55,032 nt of DNA from Rhodothermales bacterium. Lineage in GTDB: Bacteria; Bacteroidota; Rhodothermia; Rhodothermales; JAHQVL01. The position numbers were made by a program, and so were the translations under genes. The number at the start of each line of letters is the position of its first letter. Position 1 is the stretch's first letter. The notes below the pieces were generated by a model. The model saw only the letters and a program-made list of their open reading frames with translations. It was not told the DNA's origin and searched no databases. Below are positions 44,769 to 54,257 of the stretch, piece by piece. The stretch spans positions 1-55,032 of the forward strand of contig JAWXAX010000236.1 of assembly GCA_034439735.1 (NCBI GenBank), written 5' to 3'.

Positions 44769-46001
44769 TCAGGCATCGAACAGCCTATTCTCCGCCAGGC
44801 ACATCGCAAGTTCTCGGTACGTCTCGCGGATGGCCGCCGGCGTCGGTTTTGCGCCCAGCCGACGTATGATGCGACTCGAAAGTGAGCCTCGGGCCAGCAC
44901 GGCCTCCAGCACATCAACCAGCTCGGGTTCCACATCAGCCCGGACCTGCTCGAAGAGGTGCTGCCACACGCTGCCGGCATCGGCCGAGAGGGCCGATAGG
45001 CCCATTGTCGCCAGATACGCTTGGTCGCGGATGATGGTGCGTTCGCCGGTGCAGATCACGTCGAGGAAGAGGGCCGCAAGATCGTCCTCATGCCAGCGCT
45101 TCTGCGCCTCGTAGCCACACCAGCGCTGATCCACGAGCGCCCTGGTGACCGCCGCGATCCCGGCGGTAATGGCCAGATCGGCGGCCGGGCACTCCTGAAT
45201 GTCGACGATGCGGATTTCGATCGCGCTGCGGTCAAATCGAGCAATCGCTCCACGCGAGTTCATGAACGTGGATTGCAGGATGCCCTGGCCGTCAAAGGGC
45301 GCGATACCTTCCTGGATCGGGAGGTAGATTCGCTGGTGGTAGTCGGCCTGCGTGAAAACCGCCTCCGGGACCACCTTGCCGGCGATTGCAGGAATCCGTT
45401 TCTGGTTATGCCGATAGGTCTCGAGCCGGCTATCTAAGAATCCGGTATACGCCCCATCCAGCAGGGGTGTGCTGGCACTTAGCGCCGGGATGATGGGGAG
45501 CAGGAGGCGAATGGCCGCGTGTAGCCGACCGAACTCGTCGTCTCCATCAAACGGCAGGTTGATGTGAGTGCTCTGGAGGTTCGCCCATCCGTGTCCCCGG
45601 CAATCGAATATCTCGTTGTAGAGTTGGTAGACCTCGTTGAATTCGTGCGGCCAGAGCTGTGTCTCCTTGAACGGATCCATGAACGGATGGGCTCCGGTCG
45701 GCATCAGCATGGCGCCAAACGGCGCCAGATGGTCGTTCACGGCCTGGACGTTAGCGGCAAACAGCGCCGATAAGCCGGCAAGGGTGGGTGCTGGCCCGTT
45801 GGTTTTAAGCTCGATGACATGATTCACGAGCTCGTTCGACCAGCCGATGGCGCCATTTTCGATGTCATCATACGTGCCCGACACCGCAAATAACATGGCA
45901 TCGACAATCGGGCGGATCGCGAGGGTATCGCGGTCCACCACCATGTATTCGAGTTCGACCCCGAAGGCCTCAAACAGGCCGTGACGACGGTTGAGCGGCA
46001 T
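44769..46001 (-). CDS. GCS2-family glutamate-cysteine ligase-like amidoligase
   Basis: 410 residues from the ATG at 46001. The sequence begins with RRHGLFEAFGVELEYMVVDRDT, the GCS2/YbdK-type opening with the metal- and glutamate-binding acids (FGVELEYM), and continues with the QLWPHEFNEVYQLYNEIFDCRGHGWANLQSTHINLPFDGDDE core typical of the glutamine-synthetase-like amidoligase fold. It is predicted to join a glutamate-like acid to an amine using ATP. It overlaps the ATP-grasp gene by 32 bp and is the last of the three-gene cassette, so it acts in the same pathway. Product unknown. Confidence 0.82.
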   Translation of the reverse strand: MPLNRRHGLFEAFGVELEYMVVDRDTLAIRPIVDAMLFAVSGTYDDIENGAIGWSNELVNHVIELKTNGPAPTLAGLSALFAANVQAVNDHLAPFGAMLMPTGAHPFMDPFKETQLWPHEFNEVYQLYNEIFDCRGHGWANLQSTHINLPFDGDDEFGRLHAAIRLLLPIIPALSASTPLLDGAYTGFLDSRLETYRHNQKRIPAIAGKVVPEAVFTQADYHQRIYLPIQEGIAPFDGQGILQSTFMNSRGAIARFDRSAIEIRIVDIQECPAADLAITAGIAAVTRALVDQRWCGYEAQKRWHEDDLAALFLDVICTGERTIIRDQAYLATMGLSALSADAGSVWQHLFEQVRADVEPELVDVLEAVLARGSLSSRIIRRLGAKPTPAAIRETYRELAMCLAENRLFDA

Positions 46002-47469
46002 GCGCAATACCGAGTTTGGCTTCTATGCGCGTTTTTAAGGCCTGGATGATACGGACATAAAGCTCGTCTTTCAGCACATTGTCTTCGACCCCGACATCGA
46101 TATTCGGGTTGTCGTTTACCTCAATCAAATAGGGCTTGCCATCAATTTCCTTCAGATCCACCCCGAACAGGCCATCGCCTATCAGGTTCGTGGCTTTTAA
46201 TGCGGCCTCTACGATAGCCGGCGGAGCGTGTTCTACCGGGATCGTTGCATATTCGCCCATGATATCCTCCTTCTCCCCATGCCAGTTATAAATCTGCCAG
46301 TGCCCCTTCGCCATGAAGTACTGGCAGGCGAACAACGGCTTGCCGTCCAGGATGCCAATCCGCCAGTCAAAAGTAGTCGGTAAATACTCCTGAGCGATCA
46401 CCAGCTCGGATTCACTGAGCATCCGGTCCACTTCCGCTTTGAGCTCCGCCGACGTTTGTACCTTTTTCACACCCACCGAAAACGACGAATCCGGCAGCTT
46501 CAGGACGCACGGAAGCCCCAATTCTTTCTCTAACGTATCCAGATTGTCCGCATGTACGATGACTGTTTTCGGCGTGAGGATCTTGGCCAATTGGAGCACT
46601 TCCGCCAGATAGACCTTGTTCGCGCAACGAAGAATGGCCTTCGGCGTGTCGATCACGGCCATCCCTTCGGACGAAGCCCGGCTCGCAAACCGGTACGTGT
46701 GATGATCGACCGCTGTGGTTTCACGGATAAACAGGGCGTCGAACTCGCCGATTCGGCTGTAGTCCTCTCGCGTAATCAATTCGACGCTGAAACCCAGTTT
46801 TTCCGCGGCGTCGACGAATTTCTGGATGGCCTTGGGGTCCGACGGCGGCGATTTCTCCTCGGGGTTCACCAGTATCGCGAGGTCGTACAGGAATTCGCTC
46901 GCCTTCGTTTTATCGTACCGTTTCTTGGCAAAGTACTGCCGCGCCGTCTGTTGGACGAAATCCACATGACTATCTGGAATCTCACTGCGGTCGATCGCGC
47001 GAATGCTCTGTAAGATCCATTTTTTCAAGCTCTTACTCCACGTAAAACGAGCCCTCAGCAACGGCGCCTGGAACAGTTTGTATAGCTCGAGGCTGAGCCG
47101 GTCGTGTTGCGTCGCAATGTTTTTACCGAAGTAGATACTCAGCACGAACTCCTCCCCCTTGATCCGTCGGAGGCTCCGTTGAATGAGATCGTCCAGCTCG
47201 TCGGACTCAACACGTACCACCGACGGGTTCTTCAGGTCCTGAATGGTCTTCACATTTGGGATTACCTTGTGGCCGCGCGCTTCGGCGAGAAGCGAGACAT
47301 AATAGCCGCGCGACTGGTAGCTGTAGCTCCGGCACAGGTTAAACACCCGTACGTTCTTGAGCGCGGCGAATTCGGGATTGGTCAGGTATTGCTTGGCGGA
47401 CACGACCTCGACGCCTGGCACATCGAGCGTCCAGAGTTTAGGGTAGTGTACTACGACGAGCTTTTTCAT
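45970..47469 (-). CDS. RLAN-domain RimK-like ATP-grasp ligase
   Basis: 499 residues. Residues about 1-160 match the RLAN domain found in front of certain RimK-like ligases (KLVVVHYPKLW, NLCRSYSYQSRGYYVSLLAEARGHKVIP). The ATP-grasp domain (about 260-490) has CVLKLPDSSFSVGVKKV, ELVIAQEYLPTTFDWRIGILDGKP and DGLFGVDLKEIDGKPYLIEVNDNPNID, with ATP/Mg ligands in the last block. It should form an amide or peptide bond from ATP, as RimK does on a protein tail. Its ATG overlaps the C39 gene stop (ATGA), and its 3' end overlaps the GCS2 gene. Confidence 0.88.
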   Translation of the reverse strand: MKKLVVVHYPKLWTLDVPGVEVVSAKQYLTNPEFAALKNVRVFNLCRSYSYQSRGYYVSLLAEARGHKVIPNVKTIQDLKNPSVVRVESDELDDLIQRSLRRIKGEEFVLSIYFGKNIATQHDRLSLELYKLFQAPLLRARFTWSKSLKKWILQSIRAIDRSEIPDSHVDFVQQTARQYFAKKRYDKTKASEFLYDLAILVNPEEKSPPSDPKAIQKFVDAAEKLGFSVELITREDYSRIGEFDALFIRETTAVDHHTYRFASRASSEGMAVIDTPKAILRCANKVYLAEVLQLAKILTPKTVIVHADNLDTLEKELGLPCVLKLPDSSFSVGVKKVQTSAELKAEVDRMLSESELVIAQEYLPTTFDWRIGILDGKPLFACQYFMAKGHWQIYNWHGEKEDIMGEYATIPVEHAPPAIVEAALKATNLIGDGLFGVDLKEIDGKPYLIEVNDNPNIDVGVEDNVLKDELYVRIIQALKTRIEAKLGIAHAAQPSSRPV

Positions 47470-48185
47470 GGAGACGAGAGTGGGGATATCATCAACAGAT
47501 TGGCATCGTACGTCACGACGCCCAGCATGATGGCATTCACGAGACGATTCAGGCCGACCTTGTAGTAACTCTGGCCTGTAAGCGGATTACGCTTGTAGGG
47601 ATCGGCAACGATCACGGAGCCGTTTTCGAAACCACAGAGCACCACGAAGTGCCCCATCGGCTCTCCTTTGAGATCATCGTATACAGACTGATCCAGATGG
47701 TTGGTGTACTCTCGAGTGCAGGCGTACAGGTAGGTGGCGCTGAGTCCGGCGAGGATTGGAAGCCGACGGTCGAAATACCGTCGCAGCAGTTCATGGGTCA
47801 GATCCTCGAAGAGAAAGCTGCCTCCGGCTTCGAGGAAAGCGATGTAGGCATCCGTCGTTGCTTTAAACTTCTTTCCCGTTTTATAACGGAGTTGATCTTT
47901 CAGCTTTAGAATCAGCGTTTCATTAGGCAACAAATCCCAGCTCGGGTCCAGAATCTTGAGGTTGTATGAGTAGATCTGCGCCTGAAACCCGCGACGGAGT
48001 GCATCCAACCCGAGAAAAACCGCCAGCGTCCCCCCCTCCTCCAGATTTTCCACCGAGCCGATCACTTCCTCAAGCTGGACTGGGTCGCCGAAGTACTGAT
48101 AGACCGCCTGAAGACTCGTCGGACCGCACGTGACATCGTCGGGCTGTTCGAGCATCTTGATGTCAAGTACCGGAGAGAAGGGCAT
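47466..48185 (-). CDS. C39-like cysteine peptidase
   Basis: 239 residues from the ATG at 48185; no signal peptide. Papain/C39-like peptidase: the nucleophile C20 in DDVTCGPTSLQAVYQY, a His in PMGHFVVLCGF and Asp in VIVADPYKRNP, all in order. The middle (about 60-170) is helical and unrelated to ABC exporters. No transporter domain is fused, so this is a stand-alone enzyme that could release a leader or cleave an amide made by the two ligases downstream. Its stop overlaps the ATP-grasp start as ATGA. First gene of the cassette. Confidence 0.82.
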   Translation of the reverse strand: MPFSPVLDIKMLEQPDDVTCGPTSLQAVYQYFGDPVQLEEVIGSVENLEEGGTLAVFLGLDALRRGFQAQIYSYNLKILDPSWDLLPNETLILKLKDQLRYKTGKKFKATTDAYIAFLEAGGSFLFEDLTHELLRRYFDRRLPILAGLSATYLYACTREYTNHLDQSVYDDLKGEPMGHFVVLCGFENGSVIVADPYKRNPLTGQSYYKVGLNRLVNAIMLGVVTYDANLLMISPLSSP

Positions 48186-48321
48186 GGCGGAGGAGCAGGG
48201 CTGGGTATGGTGCGGATCAATCGAAGTTGTGCGCCAATGTTCCAGCCGTCCGTGAGGAGCTGGCGATACATGGCGTGGAAGCGGTCCCTGATTCCGGCCC
48301 TCCGCTAACGAACAATTCCTA

Positions 48322-51300
48322 TCAACCCTTCCTCGCTTCACGCAAACGCCCCGCAAGATGCAGGAAAAGCAATAGTAAGCCTACCATGAATACAAACTTG
48401 AGCCAGAGGGGCATCGGCTCCACCAGGCGCGATCCTTCACTCGGCCTGGTTTGGTCCTGCTGGACCTCTTGCCCGTGCGCCACGGGCACTACCTCGGAGC
48501 AGGTGGCCATCTGAACAAAAAGGTAGTTCTCTTTGGTCTCTCTCGGGGAGACGATTGCGCAGAGACCTGACTGATCGGGGGTGGAAGCTCCCCTCGCTTC
48601 CTGGACAAAGCGCCGGCGTGCTTCGTTATCGTGACGCAAGCCGTAGGGCAACACCATCAGATGGACCAGCGTTCCATCCTCCGCATCAAATGCCGTATAC
48701 ACCTCCCCTACGCCTCGAGTGCCCGCCTTGTCCAAAATACGGTATTCCAGAAAGAGCTGGCCAACAGGCCATTCTGTCCGCTCTTCGGGCCTTTTCATAA
48801 GTGGTAGCCCGTTCTGGCCTCCCTCTTCGCCGGCCGTCGGTGCAATCACACGACCCGCTGAGGGTGGTGCGACCGGTTTTAATTCGAGCACGCCCGTTTG
48901 CACAATCTGAATTGGTTTCCGTTTTGGAAGGACTTTAATATCAACATGCTGATTGGCACCTGGCGCCAGGTCGTACTCGTTTTTTTTGAGTTCTATATAA
49001 TGATTAAGTGGAAGTGAGGCCGGCTCTATCGTCAGGGTCCAGCGACCCGGACGCAGATCGGTGTACGAGAATTGGCCTCTCCGATCCGTCGTCTGGACGA
49101 AGTGTTCGGGTCCGTTGCTGATCTCGACACGGATGCCAGCCAATCCTCCTGACTGCTGAATGCCATTACCCCCCTCTGGCCCTTCGACAAAGAAATACTG
49201 CCGGACTCGACCTGATATGGATACGCTGCGGACTATCATTATATCAAGTTCCGTCACTTTGTCGCTTATGGCCAGCTCAATCGGGAGCGCTTGTGTCGGG
49301 AGGCGATCCAGACCTATGGTGGAGCGGTCGATAAACAGGTAGTGTGTGCCCGCACTCGGGTAAAGGAACTGATATTTCCCCTCCGTGTCGGTGAGCGTGT
49401 GGTTTTTTCCAAGCCTCAGCAACACGTCGGATATCCCTAAGCCGGTCTCTCCATCGATGACGCGCCCTGAAATCATTTTAGGCGAAGCTTCCCTCCAAGT
49501 GGGCACATCCAGCGGAACCGTATAGCTCAACGCATAGTCGCTGCTACCATGCTTGATGCCGCCGCCGAATGTGTTGTAGCGTGTTTTAAACGAAATGATA
49601 TGACCAAAGGGTAGGCGATGGTCGTAACCAATCGTTGCCTGGGTGTATTCGGGCAGACGTGAGTTCTTTTCTATACTCGTGTACAAGCTCACATCCATAC
49701 GCGACCGCCCTGAAAGGGTGACATTAGCGCTTATGTTCGCCAGCCAGCGCTGCTGCTGGCGAGCGCTGTAGCGTGTTTGACCGTCGAGATGTTCTACGGA
49801 CAAGTTATAGGCAATCCGGGGCATTTCGATGCGGGAGCGCAGTTCGATGCGTTGGTACGTGCCCGTGTTATCAATGCCCGAGCTTTTTAATCGATTTTGC
49901 CCTTGCTCGAATACGCCTGTCAAACCAAAGCCCTGCGCCGTGAAGCCGGACGAGACACGTATGGCCGTGTAGGTGCGATCTTGTTGGGCTACATGCTGAA
50001 CCTGGTCGTCATAATACACGTCAAAAAATGCCGATCGCTGAGCAACCCGGCGCCATAACCCACCTCCGAATCGATAGGCTCGAGTCGTTCGATTCGCCGG
50101 GTCCGCGATGGATTCGCTTTCAAAGCCTCGCGACTCGGCCCGCCAACTGCCCTCGAAACGCAACCAGCGCACGGGTCTGAAGATGAGATTCGCTGAACCG
50201 AGGTCAAGATCGCTGTAGTAGCCCGGGTATAGTGGATCGGCATGGACCAGACGGGCTCCGTACGCAATCAGGGACTGGTTGCCGACTAGTTCAAATGAGG
50301 CGGCTTTGGTCAACTTCCCCAGTCGACGTCCGACCCCCACTTCGGTGTCGATCTGTGTGTTGAGTGCCGGCCTGACTACGCCGCGTAGTGTAACGGCCTG
50401 CCCTTCCACATAACCTGTCCGACGAAGGGCGTTAGCGCTCAATTCTGTTATCGAATTGAGCCTGTAACGCACAAAAGCGGTCTGTTGGCCTTGTTCCCCG
50501 ACCGTTTGCCGGCCCTGACCGTGGAAGGCGCCAATCCCAAAGCGCCCGACACTCGTTTCTCCGCCTGCACCGAACAGATACCGGCCCCATTCGGTTAGTG
50601 GCGACAGTACATGCGTTTGATCACCAAGTCGTAGGGAGCCTTTATCTCCTGAAAATGCCAGCCGATATTCATCACGTAGCCCAAAGGACGAGCGGTCACG
50701 CCGATCGGGTGCGCGCAATAAAATATCCATTGTAGTCCCCCCTGGGCTCCGGCTCCGACCGGTCACTTCCAACTGCGTTCCGGCTCCGCGTTGATCCCCG
50801 GTCGTTCGCAGGGTGGTCGCCAGTGGGTATTCGCGAGCGACTCGCGGGACGTGCGGGGCTCGGGGAATCACGTCAATACGTGTAGACGCGTCCACCGTAT
50901 GCTCGGGGGCATCCCGTACCGAGGCCTCGACTCGCAACGCATAGTGTGTCGTGACAGGAATTAGACGTGGCGTTTCAACGACCAGAGCAAGTTGACGTGA
51001 TCCCCCGACAGGAAGCTCGATCGAGGAGGCCTCGAGGGTTGATTTCCAGTTTAAATTCCCCCTGGCGCTTAGCAGGACGGTGATCTCTCTGTTACCGCGA
51101 TTATGGAGGAGAATGGTGGCCCGGATGGGTTCGCCGGCGCGCACATGACGCGGGAATTCAGTAATCTGAATATCAGCGAGGCTCGACGGACGGACGGACA
51201 CCTCTACTTCCGCCTCGGCGGAAGATTCAGCGTCTCCGTCATACCATACGGTAAGCCGTATCACATAAGGCGTCGGTTCCGCCTTTTCTGGCACTTTGAA

Positions 51301-51606
51301 ACTGATCAGGCGAGAGATGGAATCCCGGGCGGCGACCATGAACTCGGAGGGGGGGATGATGGCGCGCCAGCCATCTGGCACTTCGACCGCGGAAACAACA
51401 AGGCGCTTTTCCGGATCGGTGCTACTGACTCGAAAAACGGCGGTGTATACCTCTCCGGGCACCGCCTCCACGAACGTAGCGCCGGCGACATCTACCCGCA
51501 CCCCGCGACTCATCTGTCCAGTCGCTGTTGACCCCACCGCCACGCTGATCGACAGGAATGAAAGGAGGAAGATACGGGACGCGATATATCCTTGGCAGTT
51601 TCCCAC
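48322..51606 (-). CDS. Usher-like envelope protein with C-terminal pseudokinase N-lobe
   Basis: 1094 residues. Signal peptide about 1-31. Residues about 32-250 are NEW3/COG1470-like beta-sandwiches; about 255-705 alternate short strands and resemble an outer-membrane barrel; about 710-770 and 796-897 are carboxypeptidase-regulatory-like beta domains. Residues about 955-1038 read like the N-lobe of a Ser/Thr kinase, and a membrane helix (about 1066-1086) ends the chain. The kinase part has GVGEVYTAFD and RRFVQEARGAS, but the ATP lysine is Met (VHLMVLP) and the whole C-lobe is absent. The start is GTG two bases past the chaperone gene stop. Last gene of the surface cluster; assembly role is inferred. 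Confidence 0.6.
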   Translation of the reverse strand: MGNCQGYIASRIFLLSFLSISVAVGSTATGQMSRGVRVDVAGATFVEAVPGEVYTAVFRVSSTDPEKRLVVSAVEVPDGWRAIIPPSEFMVAARDSISRLISFKVPEKAEPTPYVIRLTVWYDGDAESSAEAEVEVSVRPSSLADIQITEFPRHVRAGEPIRATILLHNRGNREITVLLSARGNLNWKSTLEASSIELPVGGSRQLALVVETPRLIPVTTHYALRVEASVRDAPEHTVDASTRIDVIPRAPHVPRVAREYPLATTLRTTGDQRGAGTQLEVTGRSRSPGGTTMDILLRAPDRRDRSSFGLRDEYRLAFSGDKGSLRLGDQTHVLSPLTEWGRYLFGAGGETSVGRFGIGAFHGQGRQTVGEQGQQTAFVRYRLNSITELSANALRRTGYVEGQAVTLRGVVRPALNTQIDTEVGVGRRLGKLTKAASFELVGNQSLIAYGARLVHADPLYPGYYSDLDLGSANLIFRPVRWLRFEGSWRAESRGFESESIADPANRTTRAYRFGGGLWRRVAQRSAFFDVYYDDQVQHVAQQDRTYTAIRVSSGFTAQGFGLTGVFEQGQNRLKSSGIDNTGTYQRIELRSRIEMPRIAYNLSVEHLDGQTRYSARQQQRWLANISANVTLSGRSRMDVSLYTSIEKNSRLPEYTQATIGYDHRLPFGHIISFKTRYNTFGGGIKHGSSDYALSYTVPLDVPTWREASPKMISGRVIDGETGLGISDVLLRLGKNHTLTDTEGKYQFLYPSAGTHYLFIDRSTIGLDRLPTQALPIELAISDKVTELDIMIVRSVSISGRVRQYFFVEGPEGGNGIQQSGGLAGIRVEISNGPEHFVQTTDRRGQFSYTDLRPGRWTLTIEPASLPLNHYIELKKNEYDLAPGANQHVDIKVLPKRKPIQIVQTGVLELKPVAPPSAGRVIAPTAGEEGGQNGLPLMKRPEERTEWPVGQLFLEYRILDKAGTRGVGEVYTAFDAEDGTLVHLMVLPYGLRHDNEARRRFVQEARGASTPDQSGLCAIVSPRETKENYLFVQMATCSEVVPVAHGQEVQQDQTRPSEGSRLVEPMPLWLKFVFMVGLLLLFLHLAGRLREARKG
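48493..48744 (-). other. Degenerate protein-kinase N-lobe inside the usher-like gene
   Basis: Codes residues about 955-1038. It matches the bacterial PknB-like N-lobe order: YRILDKAG, GVGEVYTAFDAEDG, VHLMVLP (normally VALKVLP), EARRRFVQEARGAS (alphaC glutamate kept), then YLFVQM (normally LFIAME). The ATP-binding lysine is replaced and there is no HRD or DFG, so no phosphotransfer is possible. Confidence 0.65.
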
Positions 51607-51608
51607 TG

Positions 51609-52427
51609 TTATAAGACGAGCGTATACTGAGCTCCAACGATGTAGTCGCCAGCGGCCTCGACAACAATGAGTGCCTCATAGTTGCCCTTCGCGAGGTGGT
51701 TTAACTCCATGCGCTGCATGACCGATGTGCCTGGATATAACCGGAAAGAACTCCCCATGAGGCGCTCCTTCTCGCTGCCGGCCGCATCGTAGATCTCTAC
51801 CCAGACGGACGGACTGATCATCGCGTCTCCGGTGTTTTCAATTATGACTTCCAACACCTTGCGGCCATCCGCCTCGGCGATCAAATCAACCCCCGTAAAT
51901 GAGACATCATAGCGCGCCTGTTCCTCGATGTGCGTGGCCACTTGAACCCCATAACGCATTACCTGGCGTACACCATATTCAACCGCTTGAGGCTTCCTGG
52001 GCAGACGCGATTCGGAGTCTCCAGCCTGTATAGGCTCTACCATCAACATGCTCCAATACGTGCCAGACAAGGGCTCCCCACCCACCGACTCGGGTACCGT
52101 CACCGAATAGTTGACGGGTATGGTTTCGCCCGGGGGAATAAGGAGGAGGGCAGGGCTGAAGTCGATCCAGGTAGCATTCGAGCGCAGCGTCGATCCAGGT
52201 TCACCGTATTCATTGGTGCCATCGGCGTAAAACAGATAGTCGGTCTGATATATCTTCGCTTCTTGCGGCTGTGCCGTATCGTTTCTGATGAGGATCTCAG
52301 CGTGGTAGATCATTCCTGGCTTCACCGGTTTATCCTGAGCGAGTCCGGTTCGAAGCGAGATCTGACCACGCGCATCGGCTGCCATACAGAAGAGAAGCAA
52401 GAGAAGGCTGCGTCGCATCGTCGACAT
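51609..52427 (-). CDS. Fimbrial-chaperone/DUF916-like secreted protein
   Basis: 272 residues with a signal peptide (about 1-22). The body is two beta-sandwiches: ISLRTGLAQDKPVKPGMIYHAEILIRNDTAQPQEAKIY and SPALLLIPPGETIPVNYSVTVPES follow the pattern of pilus-chaperone and DUF916 (WxL-interacting) immunoglobulin-like domains, and a second sandwich covers about 175-272. This would make it a periplasmic chaperone or a surface-linker protein. It starts 13 nt after the second subunit gene and ends 2 nt before the usher-like gene, so it should act on products of that cluster. The chaperone label is analogy; no donor-strand motif can be proved. Confidence 0.62.
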   Translation of the reverse strand: MSTMRRSLLLLLFCMAADARGQISLRTGLAQDKPVKPGMIYHAEILIRNDTAQPQEAKIYQTDYLFYADGTNEYGEPGSTLRSNATWIDFSPALLLIPPGETIPVNYSVTVPESVGGEPLSGTYWSMLMVEPIQAGDSESRLPRKPQAVEYGVRQVMRYGVQVATHIEEQARYDVSFTGVDLIAEADGRKVLEVIIENTGDAMISPSVWVEIYDAAGSEKERLMGSSFRLYPGTSVMQRMELNHLAKGNYEALIVVEAAGDYIVGAQYTLVL

Positions 52428-52440
52428 AGGGTTTTAATGC

Positions 52441-52920
52441 TTATTGTGCCGTCAGTGTAAATGTAATCGTATGAACGTCATCCCCATTGGCTGCACTCGT
52501 TCCCTGCGCAGCCGTGGCTTCAGCACGGTACTGAAGCGTCCCGCTTCCTATTACACTCTTGCCAATCGATTGTATGAGATCAATGGCGGCCATCCCGTCT
52601 GCAAGCGACCGTTCTGGTTGGGCAGTCCCCTCCACCACGCCTGTCGCTACCAGGTACAAGGAAAAGGACTGACCGGGACAGGCCGTGGAAACCGTTATTT
52701 TGAAGGCGTTCTGGGTGCCGTTGGTCGACCAATCGAGCCTGGTTGCGGTATTCGTTACCGATTGAGGTTGTGATCCCGCAATGGCCGAAACGATAGTGAG
52801 TGTGGGGTTGCCTCCCACCACGGTAAGCGACAACGGGGGTGTTTCGTTCATCCAACCCACCCCCAGCAACAAGGCCAACACACCGGGCCCCGCGGCGGCG
52901 AAAGCCAGCTTTCGATTCAT
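52441..52920 (-). CDS. Small secreted beta-rich subunit (paralogue 2)
   Basis: 159 residues; an N-terminal hydrophobic segment (about 8-24) is a signal peptide or anchor. The rest is beta-rich and Thr/Ala/Ser-rich. It is a paralogue of the next gene: NPTLTIVSAIAGSQPQSV aligns with AATLTITINSATAGSAPDD, and the end TAAQGTSAANGDDVHTITFTLTAQ aligns with TAAAVPNEPAGETHTVTLTITNI. Unnamed family. Such Ig-like proteins are good candidates for fibre subunits handled by the chaperone-like gene 13 nt downstream. Only the first has a clean cleavable signal sequence. Confidence 0.68.
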   Translation of the reverse strand: MNRKLAFAAAGPGVLALLLGVGWMNETPPLSLTVVGGNPTLTIVSAIAGSQPQSVTNTATRLDWSTNGTQNAFKITVSTACPGQSFSLYLVATGVVEGTAQPERSLADGMAAIDLIQSIGKSVIGSGTLQYRAEATAAQGTSAANGDDVHTITFTLTAQ

Positions 52921-52943
52921 TCAGTTTGTGTGAACTTGGCTCG

Positions 52944-52959
52944 GCGGGATTCATCCCGC
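52944..52959. promoter_or_regulatory. 7-bp hairpin in the gap between the two subunit genes
   Basis: GCGGGAT TC ATCCCGC, a perfect dyad 23 nt upstream of the second subunit gene. No T tract follows, so it may attenuate, process or stabilise the mRNA rather than terminate it, and could set different levels of the two subunits. The rest of the 240-bp gap shows no gene. Confidence 0.3.
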
Positions 52960-53160
52960 GGTATGCAGAAGAAATGCGATCAAGACGCTGATGTGAATGC
53001 GCCCATACTACGCAGTCAGTTTATGGCTGCGGAGTCTACGTGAAATGAAAACCCGTTATTCTGAAAATCAAGGCCGCTTTATTACCAGGAAGCGTATTGA
53101 AGAGCGGATAACATACCTCGACGGGCATCGTGGTTGAAGTGAAGAGCAGCAGGATGCGGC

Positions 53161-53655
53161 TCAAATATTTGTAATCGTAAGGGTGACCGTATGCGTCTCG
53201 CCGGCAGGCTCATTGGGCACGGCGGCAGCGGTTGCCGCTGCCGTGTATTTGATTTGCAGTGCCATTCCGGTGACACGCGTAATGCCTGTAACAAGGTCTG
53301 ATGCACTCCCCGACGTCAGGGTGACTTCTCCGGCTGATGTGGCACCAGCTGGTTCCGTCAATTCGATAGCGAGGCTGATGCCGGCTGCATAGTCTACATC
53401 CAGCTGCCCGGTGATCTTCTTGTTCGCCCCATTACTCGTGATGTTGTACGTTGTCGTGAGGTCGGTCGCATCGTCGGGCGCGCTGCCGGCCGTCGCTGAA
53501 TTGATCGTGATGGTCAGGGTCGCAGCTGAAACGGTGATCTCATTAATCTCCTGAACGACCACTGTCACGTTTTGTGTCTCGCTCTGAGCAACAACCAGCG
53601 GCGCTAGCCACAGGCTAGCAATCAGAAGAGTTATGACAAGTTTGAAGCTACGCAT
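53161..53655 (-). CDS. Small secreted beta-rich subunit (paralogue 1)
   Basis: 164 residues from ATG 53655, with a clear signal peptide (about 1-23, VVA-Q). The mature part begins QNVTVVVQEINEITVSAATLTITINSATAGSAPDDATDLTTTYNITSNGANKKITG and continues in alternating strands to the last residue, with no cysteines. It is paralogous to the gene at 52441-52920. A single-domain, Thr/Ala-rich beta-sandwich of this kind fits a major surface or fibre subunit. It is first in a minus-strand cluster of four genes and has a 602-nt gene-free leader. Named family not recognised. Confidence 0.72.
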   Translation of the reverse strand: MRSFKLVITLLIASLWLAPLVVAQSETQNVTVVVQEINEITVSAATLTITINSATAGSAPDDATDLTTTYNITSNGANKKITGQLDVDYAAGISLAIELTEPAGATSAGEVTLTSGSASDLVTGITRVTGMALQIKYTAAATAAAVPNEPAGETHTVTLTITNI

Positions 53656-54257
53656 CTTGGCTACGGTAAGGCTTTGATACTGTCGGGCACGTCTGATCAC
53701 CCACTCTCCCAGGGATCGGCCATCGCGATTCAGCCTTTAAGTGTTTTCACTTACGACATTAATGATCGGGTTTTCTGTGGATTTCATGCGGACGGGGGCG
53801 GTTTTCGAGGCGCGATGCGGCGGTTCCCACGAGCAAAAGAGCGAAGAGGACCGCTGAATCGACACATAAGGCAGGCGGCGTCTATCAAAAACATCCTGAC
53901 GCTACTTCGCACGAAAATGCAAATCGGATACCATCACTCCGTCCGCAGCCCCTGGCCGTCTTTTGTCGATCGCGGGTGCTTAATCGAGCTGGCAGAAGGA
54001 AAATCCTGCCGATGGAAGGTGCGACTGACTCCCTCCCGTAGGGCTCCCCGAAGGGCGGAAGCAGACGTCTTCTCCGGGTGTTGCATCGTAGCGCTGCCCT
54101 CAACCCATCAACCAGGTAACGTGTGTGACGTCACGGTGCAATTATTAAAACACATATGTAATGACATATGATTATTTTGGACAAGGGCTCCCCGACACAG
54201 CGGGTGTGTGGCCGTTGAATCCAACGTCATGCTCCTCCTGAAGGATGTGACCGTGTG
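53656..54257 (-). promoter_or_regulatory. 602-bp gene-free leader of the surface cluster
   Basis: No supported gene. An AT-rich block (about 54141-54180) with two CATATG palindromes (54153-54158, 54165-54170) and a TAATAAT-like element on the minus strand looks like a promoter; the palindrome GTGACGTCAC (54125-54134) is just downstream of it. The predicted minus-strand leader holds two UNCG-type loops (CCC UUCG GGG at 54046-54055; CC UACG GG at 54035-54042) enclosed by CUUCC/GGGAG, and a GGCAG/CTGCC stem at 53991-54010. No known riboswitch was recognised. Confidence 0.4.

Follow-up and report, generated by a model that had tools for sequence, protein, structure and literature searches.

Bacterial pseudokinases such as MviN/ActPs3 and members of other families (PMC12599244) display a degenerate Ser/Thr-kinase fold and are proposed to be non-catalytic. 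Back-to-back dimerization through the N-lobe is possible both for bacterial kinases and for the MviN pseudokinase (PMC12599244; PMC6333020). The fragment that we describe here likewise shows a degenerate Ser/Thr-kinase fold but, whereas the pseudokinases in PMC12599244 are families of kinase domains common to many genomes, it consists of one lobe in one species. Within the open-access papers searched, we found no description of a kinase N-lobe standing alone in the periplasm, and the words periplasm, extracellular, C-lobe, and fragment are absent from the main text of PMC12599244.

Domain architecture of the protein

The window, that is, the whole 55,032-nucleotide stretch that we analyzed (contig JAWXAX010000236.1 of a Rhodothermales bacterium, assembly GCA_034439735.1), encodes a large usher-like protein with the following features.

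48322..51606, minus strand: coding sequence of the usher-like outer-membrane protein, 1094 aa, GTG start, frame open throughout
51517..51606, minus strand: N-terminal signal peptide, aa 1-30, called by eye; low-confidence N terminus of the model, ahead of the first Ig strand
50866..51501, minus strand: two Ig-like domains including NPCBM_assoc/NEW3, aa 36-247 (Pfam PF10633, E 7e-7; strands in the model)
49501..50832, minus strand: predicted β-barrel of ~26 strands, aa 259-702 (AlphaFold2 model)
48922..49476, minus strand: two CarboxypepD_reg/transthyretin-like sandwiches, aa 711-895 (Pfam PF13620, E 2e-9)
48766..48921, minus strand: disordered linker, aa 896-947 (pLDDT <50)
48499..48765, minus strand: kinase N-lobe-like domain, aa 948-1036 (β1-3, αC, β4-5), stopping at the hinge
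48655..48657, minus strand: ATG codon of M984, at the position of the invariant VAIK lysine (Lys in 16/16 aligned kinases)
48340..48408 (aa 1067-1089), minus strand: transmembrane helix, about aa 1067-1093 (predicted models)

The signal peptide was called from a hydrophobic stretch (residues 11-27) recognized by eye in the sequence, together with the outer-membrane barrel that is predicted in the same protein. At the opposite end, only 58 residues are found C-terminal to the hinge of the N-lobe, and these include the membrane helix and a short basic end (RLREARKG) that comes after the helix, overlaps its last part, and by eye follows the positive-inside pattern. The helix displays a pLDDT of ~90-98 in the AlphaFold2 model computed with kinase rows in the alignment, and is also present in the whole-protein model. 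Hence, both the signal peptide and the single membrane helix after the kinase-like part, which had been put forward in the original prediction, were recovered, the former by eye and the latter in the models.

A Ser/Thr kinase N-lobe after the linker

The interval 48493-48744 on the minus strand, which corresponds to residues 955-1038, had been read originally as a Ser/Thr kinase N-lobe. This assignment is borne out with a slightly earlier start, since residues 948-1036 show homology to the N-lobe of Rhodothermales Ser/Thr kinases over its full length. A profile of 20 kinase N-lobes from which the sequence under study had been left out gives the tail 54.3 bits (E 2.6e-15 at Z=5000), whereas 2000 shuffled versions of the tail reach 6.5 bits at best. 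Seven Ser/Thr kinases of the same genome match the segment at E <1e-3, with 28-40% identity (top match E 1.3e-13, 38% identity), and all seven continue to HRD and DFG motifs. The NCBIfam StpK7 model matches residues 952-1011 (E 4.2e-6), and StkP and PknB-type PDB chains align to the segment with weak E-values. Pfam Pkinase gives no match anywhere in the 1094-aa protein at E<=1, and a Pfam scan alone would therefore miss the N-lobe. Codon-position GC in the N-lobe is similar to that in the remainder of the gene.

The predicted fold is that of an N-lobe. An AlphaFold2 model of the tail, biased by the kinase rows included in its alignment, exhibits strands 1-3, αC, and strands 4-5, with pLDDT values of 93-96 across the greater part of the domain, and a Foldseek search with the N-lobe model returns PknA, PknI, PknB, and PknE with a probability of 1.00. 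The whole-protein model, computed without kinase rows, shows with low confidence the same order of elements, with two strands (968-973 and 980-987), then a helix (994-1006), then two more strands (1015-1020 and 1028-1035). By homology and by the predicted order of its structural elements, the domain is a Ser/Thr kinase N-lobe.

Catalytic residues are lost and the αC set is retained

Among the 38 columns that are conserved in at least 80% of 16 aligned kinases, 23 are kept in the N-lobe, while real kinases, each left out in turn, keep 32-38. As originally reported, the VAIK lysine is replaced by a methionine (K984M). The other losses affect the middle glycine of the loop (G964R), the VAIK alanine (A982H), and the HPN motif (H1012Q and N1014G). 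Retained are the R999-F1000-E1003-A1004 set of αC, which includes the αC glutamate E1003, and many strand glycines and hydrophobic residues. None of the 16 aligned kinases exceeds 42% identity to the N-lobe.

An active Ser/Thr kinase is ruled out by K984M, by the absence of HRD and DFG motifs, and by a frame that ends 58 residues past the hinge, which also confirms that there is no C-lobe. For a bilobal pseudokinase the degenerate catalytic residues would be fitting, but the C-lobe is missing. A further replacement, L977D, places an aspartate where all 16 aligned kinases have a leucine. From the PknB numbering and from the gapless alignment to bacterial kinases, we take position 977 to be equivalent to L33 of PknB. 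L33D is the PknB mutant named in the PDB titles of 3oro and 3ork. Since the interface leucine is an aspartate here, use of the lobe in PknB-type back-to-back dimerization is unlikely.

The host is a predicted usher-like barrel in a conserved four-gene module

A Foldseek search with the model of the host protein returns FimD ushers first (E 3e-12), with low TM-scores (0.11-0.35). VIA-align, which tests mostly the barrel, places the barrel of the Mtr complex first (Z 18.5, 409 residues, rmsd 4.7), with porins also scoring high and no usher among its best 50 rows. Pfam Usher (PF00577) does not match the protein, and a PDB profile search with the host returned no usher. From fold and gene neighbors, we infer that the host is an outer-membrane usher-like barrel with a putative role in the secretion or assembly of subunits. 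Three genes for small exported proteins precede it.

51609..52427, minus strand: 272-aa exported chaperone-like protein; homologues with 40-48% identity precede the usher-like gene in every locus checked
52441..52920, minus strand: 159-aa exported pilin-like subunit; homologues in the same place in relatives
53161..53700, minus strand: 179-aa exported pilin-like subunit; homologues in the same place in relatives

The chaperone-like gene adjoins the usher-like gene in 11/11 loci of relatives checked, and most of these loci also have the subunit-like genes. At least 80 loci encode the chaperone-like protein, and they span Bacteroidota, Deltaproteobacteria, Spirochaetes, Planctomycetota, Gammaproteobacteria, Armatimonadetes, and others, and 71 of 80 have an identifiable usher-like frame of at least 600 aa. 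Although PDB searches with the partner proteins gave no meaningful match, fold and neighbors suggest that they are a chaperone and subunits, in a chaperone-usher-like system. The module (48322-53700, minus strand) has no Pfam usher, chaperone, or pilin match yet is conserved across many phyla, and may be an undescribed secretion/assembly system. Downstream (44769-48356, minus strand) lie genes for a C39-peptidase-like protein, a RimK-like ATP-grasp protein with a RLAN domain, and a GCS2 glutamate-cysteine-ligase-like enzyme, a cluster that looks like a peptide-ligation/modification set.

Relatives exchange C-terminal tails

Relatives of the usher-like protein, at 24-32% identity, align up to residue ~908, where the conserved core ends, and only a few exceptions extend some tens of residues further. 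Most relatives outside Bacteroidota end within ~10 residues of the core. The others carry tails of different kinds, consisting of one or two LysM domains (L014, L015, L016, L021, and L023-L026), SPOR domains (L019 and L029), membrane helices, alone or along with another domain (L022, L027, L032, L071, and L156), or unassigned stretches. Additional tails were classified by eye from the sequence, as SPOR-like in the Ignavibacteria-type loci L121-L138 and L158 and also in L153, and as LysM in L028/L131. On a quick tree of 47 cores, the class of tail switches at least 12 times. L148 and L153 differ very little in their cores, but L148 has no tail and L153 a double SPOR-like one, which reveals a recent gain or loss. 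Several membrane helices are present in the tails of L022, L027, L071, and L139, and those of L022 and L027 also match the MscS β-domain weakly (E 0.05-0.07), an arrangement that looks like an outer-membrane barrel fused to a mechanosensitive-channel-like inner-membrane part.

No kinase N-lobe was found in ~100 other relatives, including all sampled relatives at 24-32% identity and the usher-like genes of the 80 chaperone-module loci. A scan of 84,980 genomes returned no close relative of the protein, the usher-like gene was not seen in two other genomes of the same family, and the segment comprising the post-N-lobe residues and the membrane helix has no homologue among the other genes of the genome. 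Since the core ends at ~908, tails vary, and no relative has an N-lobe, it looks like a single tail exchange captured the kinase N-lobe together with an inner-membrane anchor. A kinase fragment in such a place had been described originally as unexpected. The fusion holds but is less isolated than it then appeared, because the host C terminus is a hot spot for the exchange of LysM, SPOR, and membrane tails. Of the counterindications that the original prediction had named, a different fold did not emerge from structure prediction, absence of the segment from relatives was found, and a frameshift scar was not. LysM and SPOR domains bind peptidoglycan, and the C-terminal end of the protein would therefore lie in the periplasm. 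Together with the N terminus and the barrel, these tails agree with the earlier placement of the N-lobe outside the cytoplasm or at the periplasmic face.

Drift simulations and truncated kinase genes

When free drift down to 60% identity was simulated, a stop codon was met in 74-88% of the runs, and the tail has for this reason probably been kept in frame. In-frame neutral decay was also simulated from six parent kinases, each run until as many conserved columns had been lost as in the N-lobe, and the resulting profile scores equal or exceed that observed. The simulation thus shows no sign of selection on the N-lobe fold, in a test that is weak because the true parent kinase is not known.

Truncated kinase genes occur elsewhere in the order. 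L040 (reverse complement 1477-1824) encodes a 116-aa N-lobe with an intact VAIK lysine and no C-lobe downstream, and in L110 (reverse complement 1482-1928) the kinase breaks off in the C-lobe. Both look like real truncations in Rhodothermales, and with such free-standing truncated N-lobes in the order, the raw material for a capture is at hand. Other candidates for free N-lobes were discarded, L095/L120 (the same locus) because HRD and DFG are present further on, and L109 and L111 because their frames run into contig ends.

Discussion

In the explanation that we propose, the protein would belong to a four-gene module for chaperone/subunit secretion, as its usher-like outer-membrane component, with different lineages adding different periplasmic tails past residue ~908. 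In this Rhodothermales species, the tail would derive from a fragment of a Ser/Thr kinase gene, encompassing the entire N-lobe from its start to the hinge, and would be followed by an inner-membrane helix. After export the N-lobe would be in the periplasm, without ATP, and no phosphorylation would be possible, since the lysine, the adenine-site alanine, and a loop glycine are lost and the C-lobe is absent. The lobe would act as a passive, compact folded spacer in a tether linking the outer-membrane barrel to the inner membrane, in the slot that is occupied in relatives by LysM/SPOR peptidoglycan anchors or other membrane tails. That a captured kinase N-lobe serves as such a spacer in a trans-envelope tether is what we consider probable, though not strongly so. 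The analysis shows the homology, the predicted fold, the loss of catalytic residues, the exchange of tails within the family, and the gene module, and from these we infer the periplasmic side, the tether, and the usher function. A passive role suffices because in-frame neutral decay reproduces the observed profile score. What speaks against it is that the frame is open and the fold order intact, despite stops being expected in about three-quarters to seven-eighths of drift runs; the open frame fits selection on the whole tail, and use of the N-lobe itself could also account for it. Moreover, it is unusual for an outer-membrane barrel to carry an inner-membrane anchor, although several relatives have C-terminal membrane helices, and the usher role is read from fold and neighbors.

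Both explanations offered by the original prediction, a domesticated binding domain or a fusion scar, are live, with the evidence leaning toward a captured in-frame spacer/anchor more than toward a binding function. As a domesticated domain, the lobe would use the surface formed by its β-sheet and αC to bind a partner in the periplasm, which could be a subunit, a chaperone, peptidoglycan, or some other protein of the envelope, and would gate or dock the pore. This is a tentative possibility, consistent with a fragment that comprises exactly one structural lobe ending at the hinge, with the retained αC set and many strand glycines and hydrophobic residues in a confident model, and with the binding domains found as tails elsewhere in the family, where LysM and SPOR dock to peptidoglycan. 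However, its conservation cannot be shown because no sampled relative shares the N-lobe, the profile score is not above that of in-frame neutral decay, and known N-lobe contacts are damaged, the equivalent of PknB L33 being already an aspartate. We find it rather doubtful that a lone kinase lobe, located beyond the cytoplasm and away from ATP, has been recruited to bind proteins and to dock or gate the usher-like pore from the LysM/SPOR slot. A decaying relic of a joined kinase gene, with no selected role, in a tail that would count for nothing or for its membrane helix alone, is unlikely. Truncated kinase N-lobes elsewhere in the order (L040 and L110), the loss of catalytic, HPN, and dimer-interface positions alike, and the fit of the neutral simulation all argue for such a relic. 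It accords poorly with a tail free of stops and frameshifts, when comparable drift usually hits a stop in simulated runs, and with the intact membrane helix and basic end behind the N-lobe.

Two further readings are weaker still. Kinase lobes normally work in the cytoplasm and, with one transmembrane helix near the C terminus, the C-terminal part might not be exported and the N-lobe might sense nucleotide or a kinase on the cytoplasmic side. This we regard as very improbable in view of the signal-peptide-like N terminus, the Ig domains, and the 26-strand barrel in front, of the LysM/SPOR tails that mark the periplasmic side at the same place in relatives, and of basic residues that come after the helix, not before. 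Scarcely credible is an assembly chimera joining two genes of a draft contig, or a chance similarity. The genome is indeed a draft in 304 contigs, but a single open frame spans both junctions, and the profile score is far above those of shuffles. Nor is the segment a mis-joined working kinase, since it is at most 42% identical to the 16 kinases and invariant residues are already missing. A folded spacer in a tether to the inner membrane is the more economical role, with a binding role as the possible alternative.

Here, half a kinase fold has survived the loss of the other lobe, probably in a compartment other than the one in which kinases usually act. The locus also exposes a family of usher-like outer-membrane proteins with periplasmic tails exchanged between lineages. 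If the lobe does bind a partner, a kinase N-lobe would be usable alone as a domain; if it does not, the protein neatly illustrates how the by-product of a gene fusion can stay in frame.

With the Hanks-type kinases of Rhodothermales (e.g., L002-L006, from the same genome) and the solved PknA, PknB, PknE, PknI, and StkP, the protein shares N-lobe sequence and predicted fold, and residues 948-1036 retain the αC glutamate and the first and last loop glycines. In contrast to these kinases, the C-lobe is absent, and the lysine, the VAIK alanine, the middle loop glycine, and the HPN motif are altered; while a Hanks-type kinase is cytoplasmic, the fragment here forms the C terminus of an exported protein. 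Like the FimD/PapC ushers, the host is predicted to be exported, with N-terminal periplasmic domains, a large barrel, and two C-terminal sandwiches, and it is encoded with chaperone-like and subunit-like proteins. Unlike them, it matches neither Pfam Usher nor the FimD/PapC chains in sequence, its model displays no apparent plug insertion, and it has an extra periplasmic tail. Comparable too are the relatives L014, L019, L022, L032, and L156, which have a homologous core, the same gene module, and a tail attached at the same point, but whose tails are peptidoglycan-binding domains or membrane anchors, where here it is a kinase lobe.
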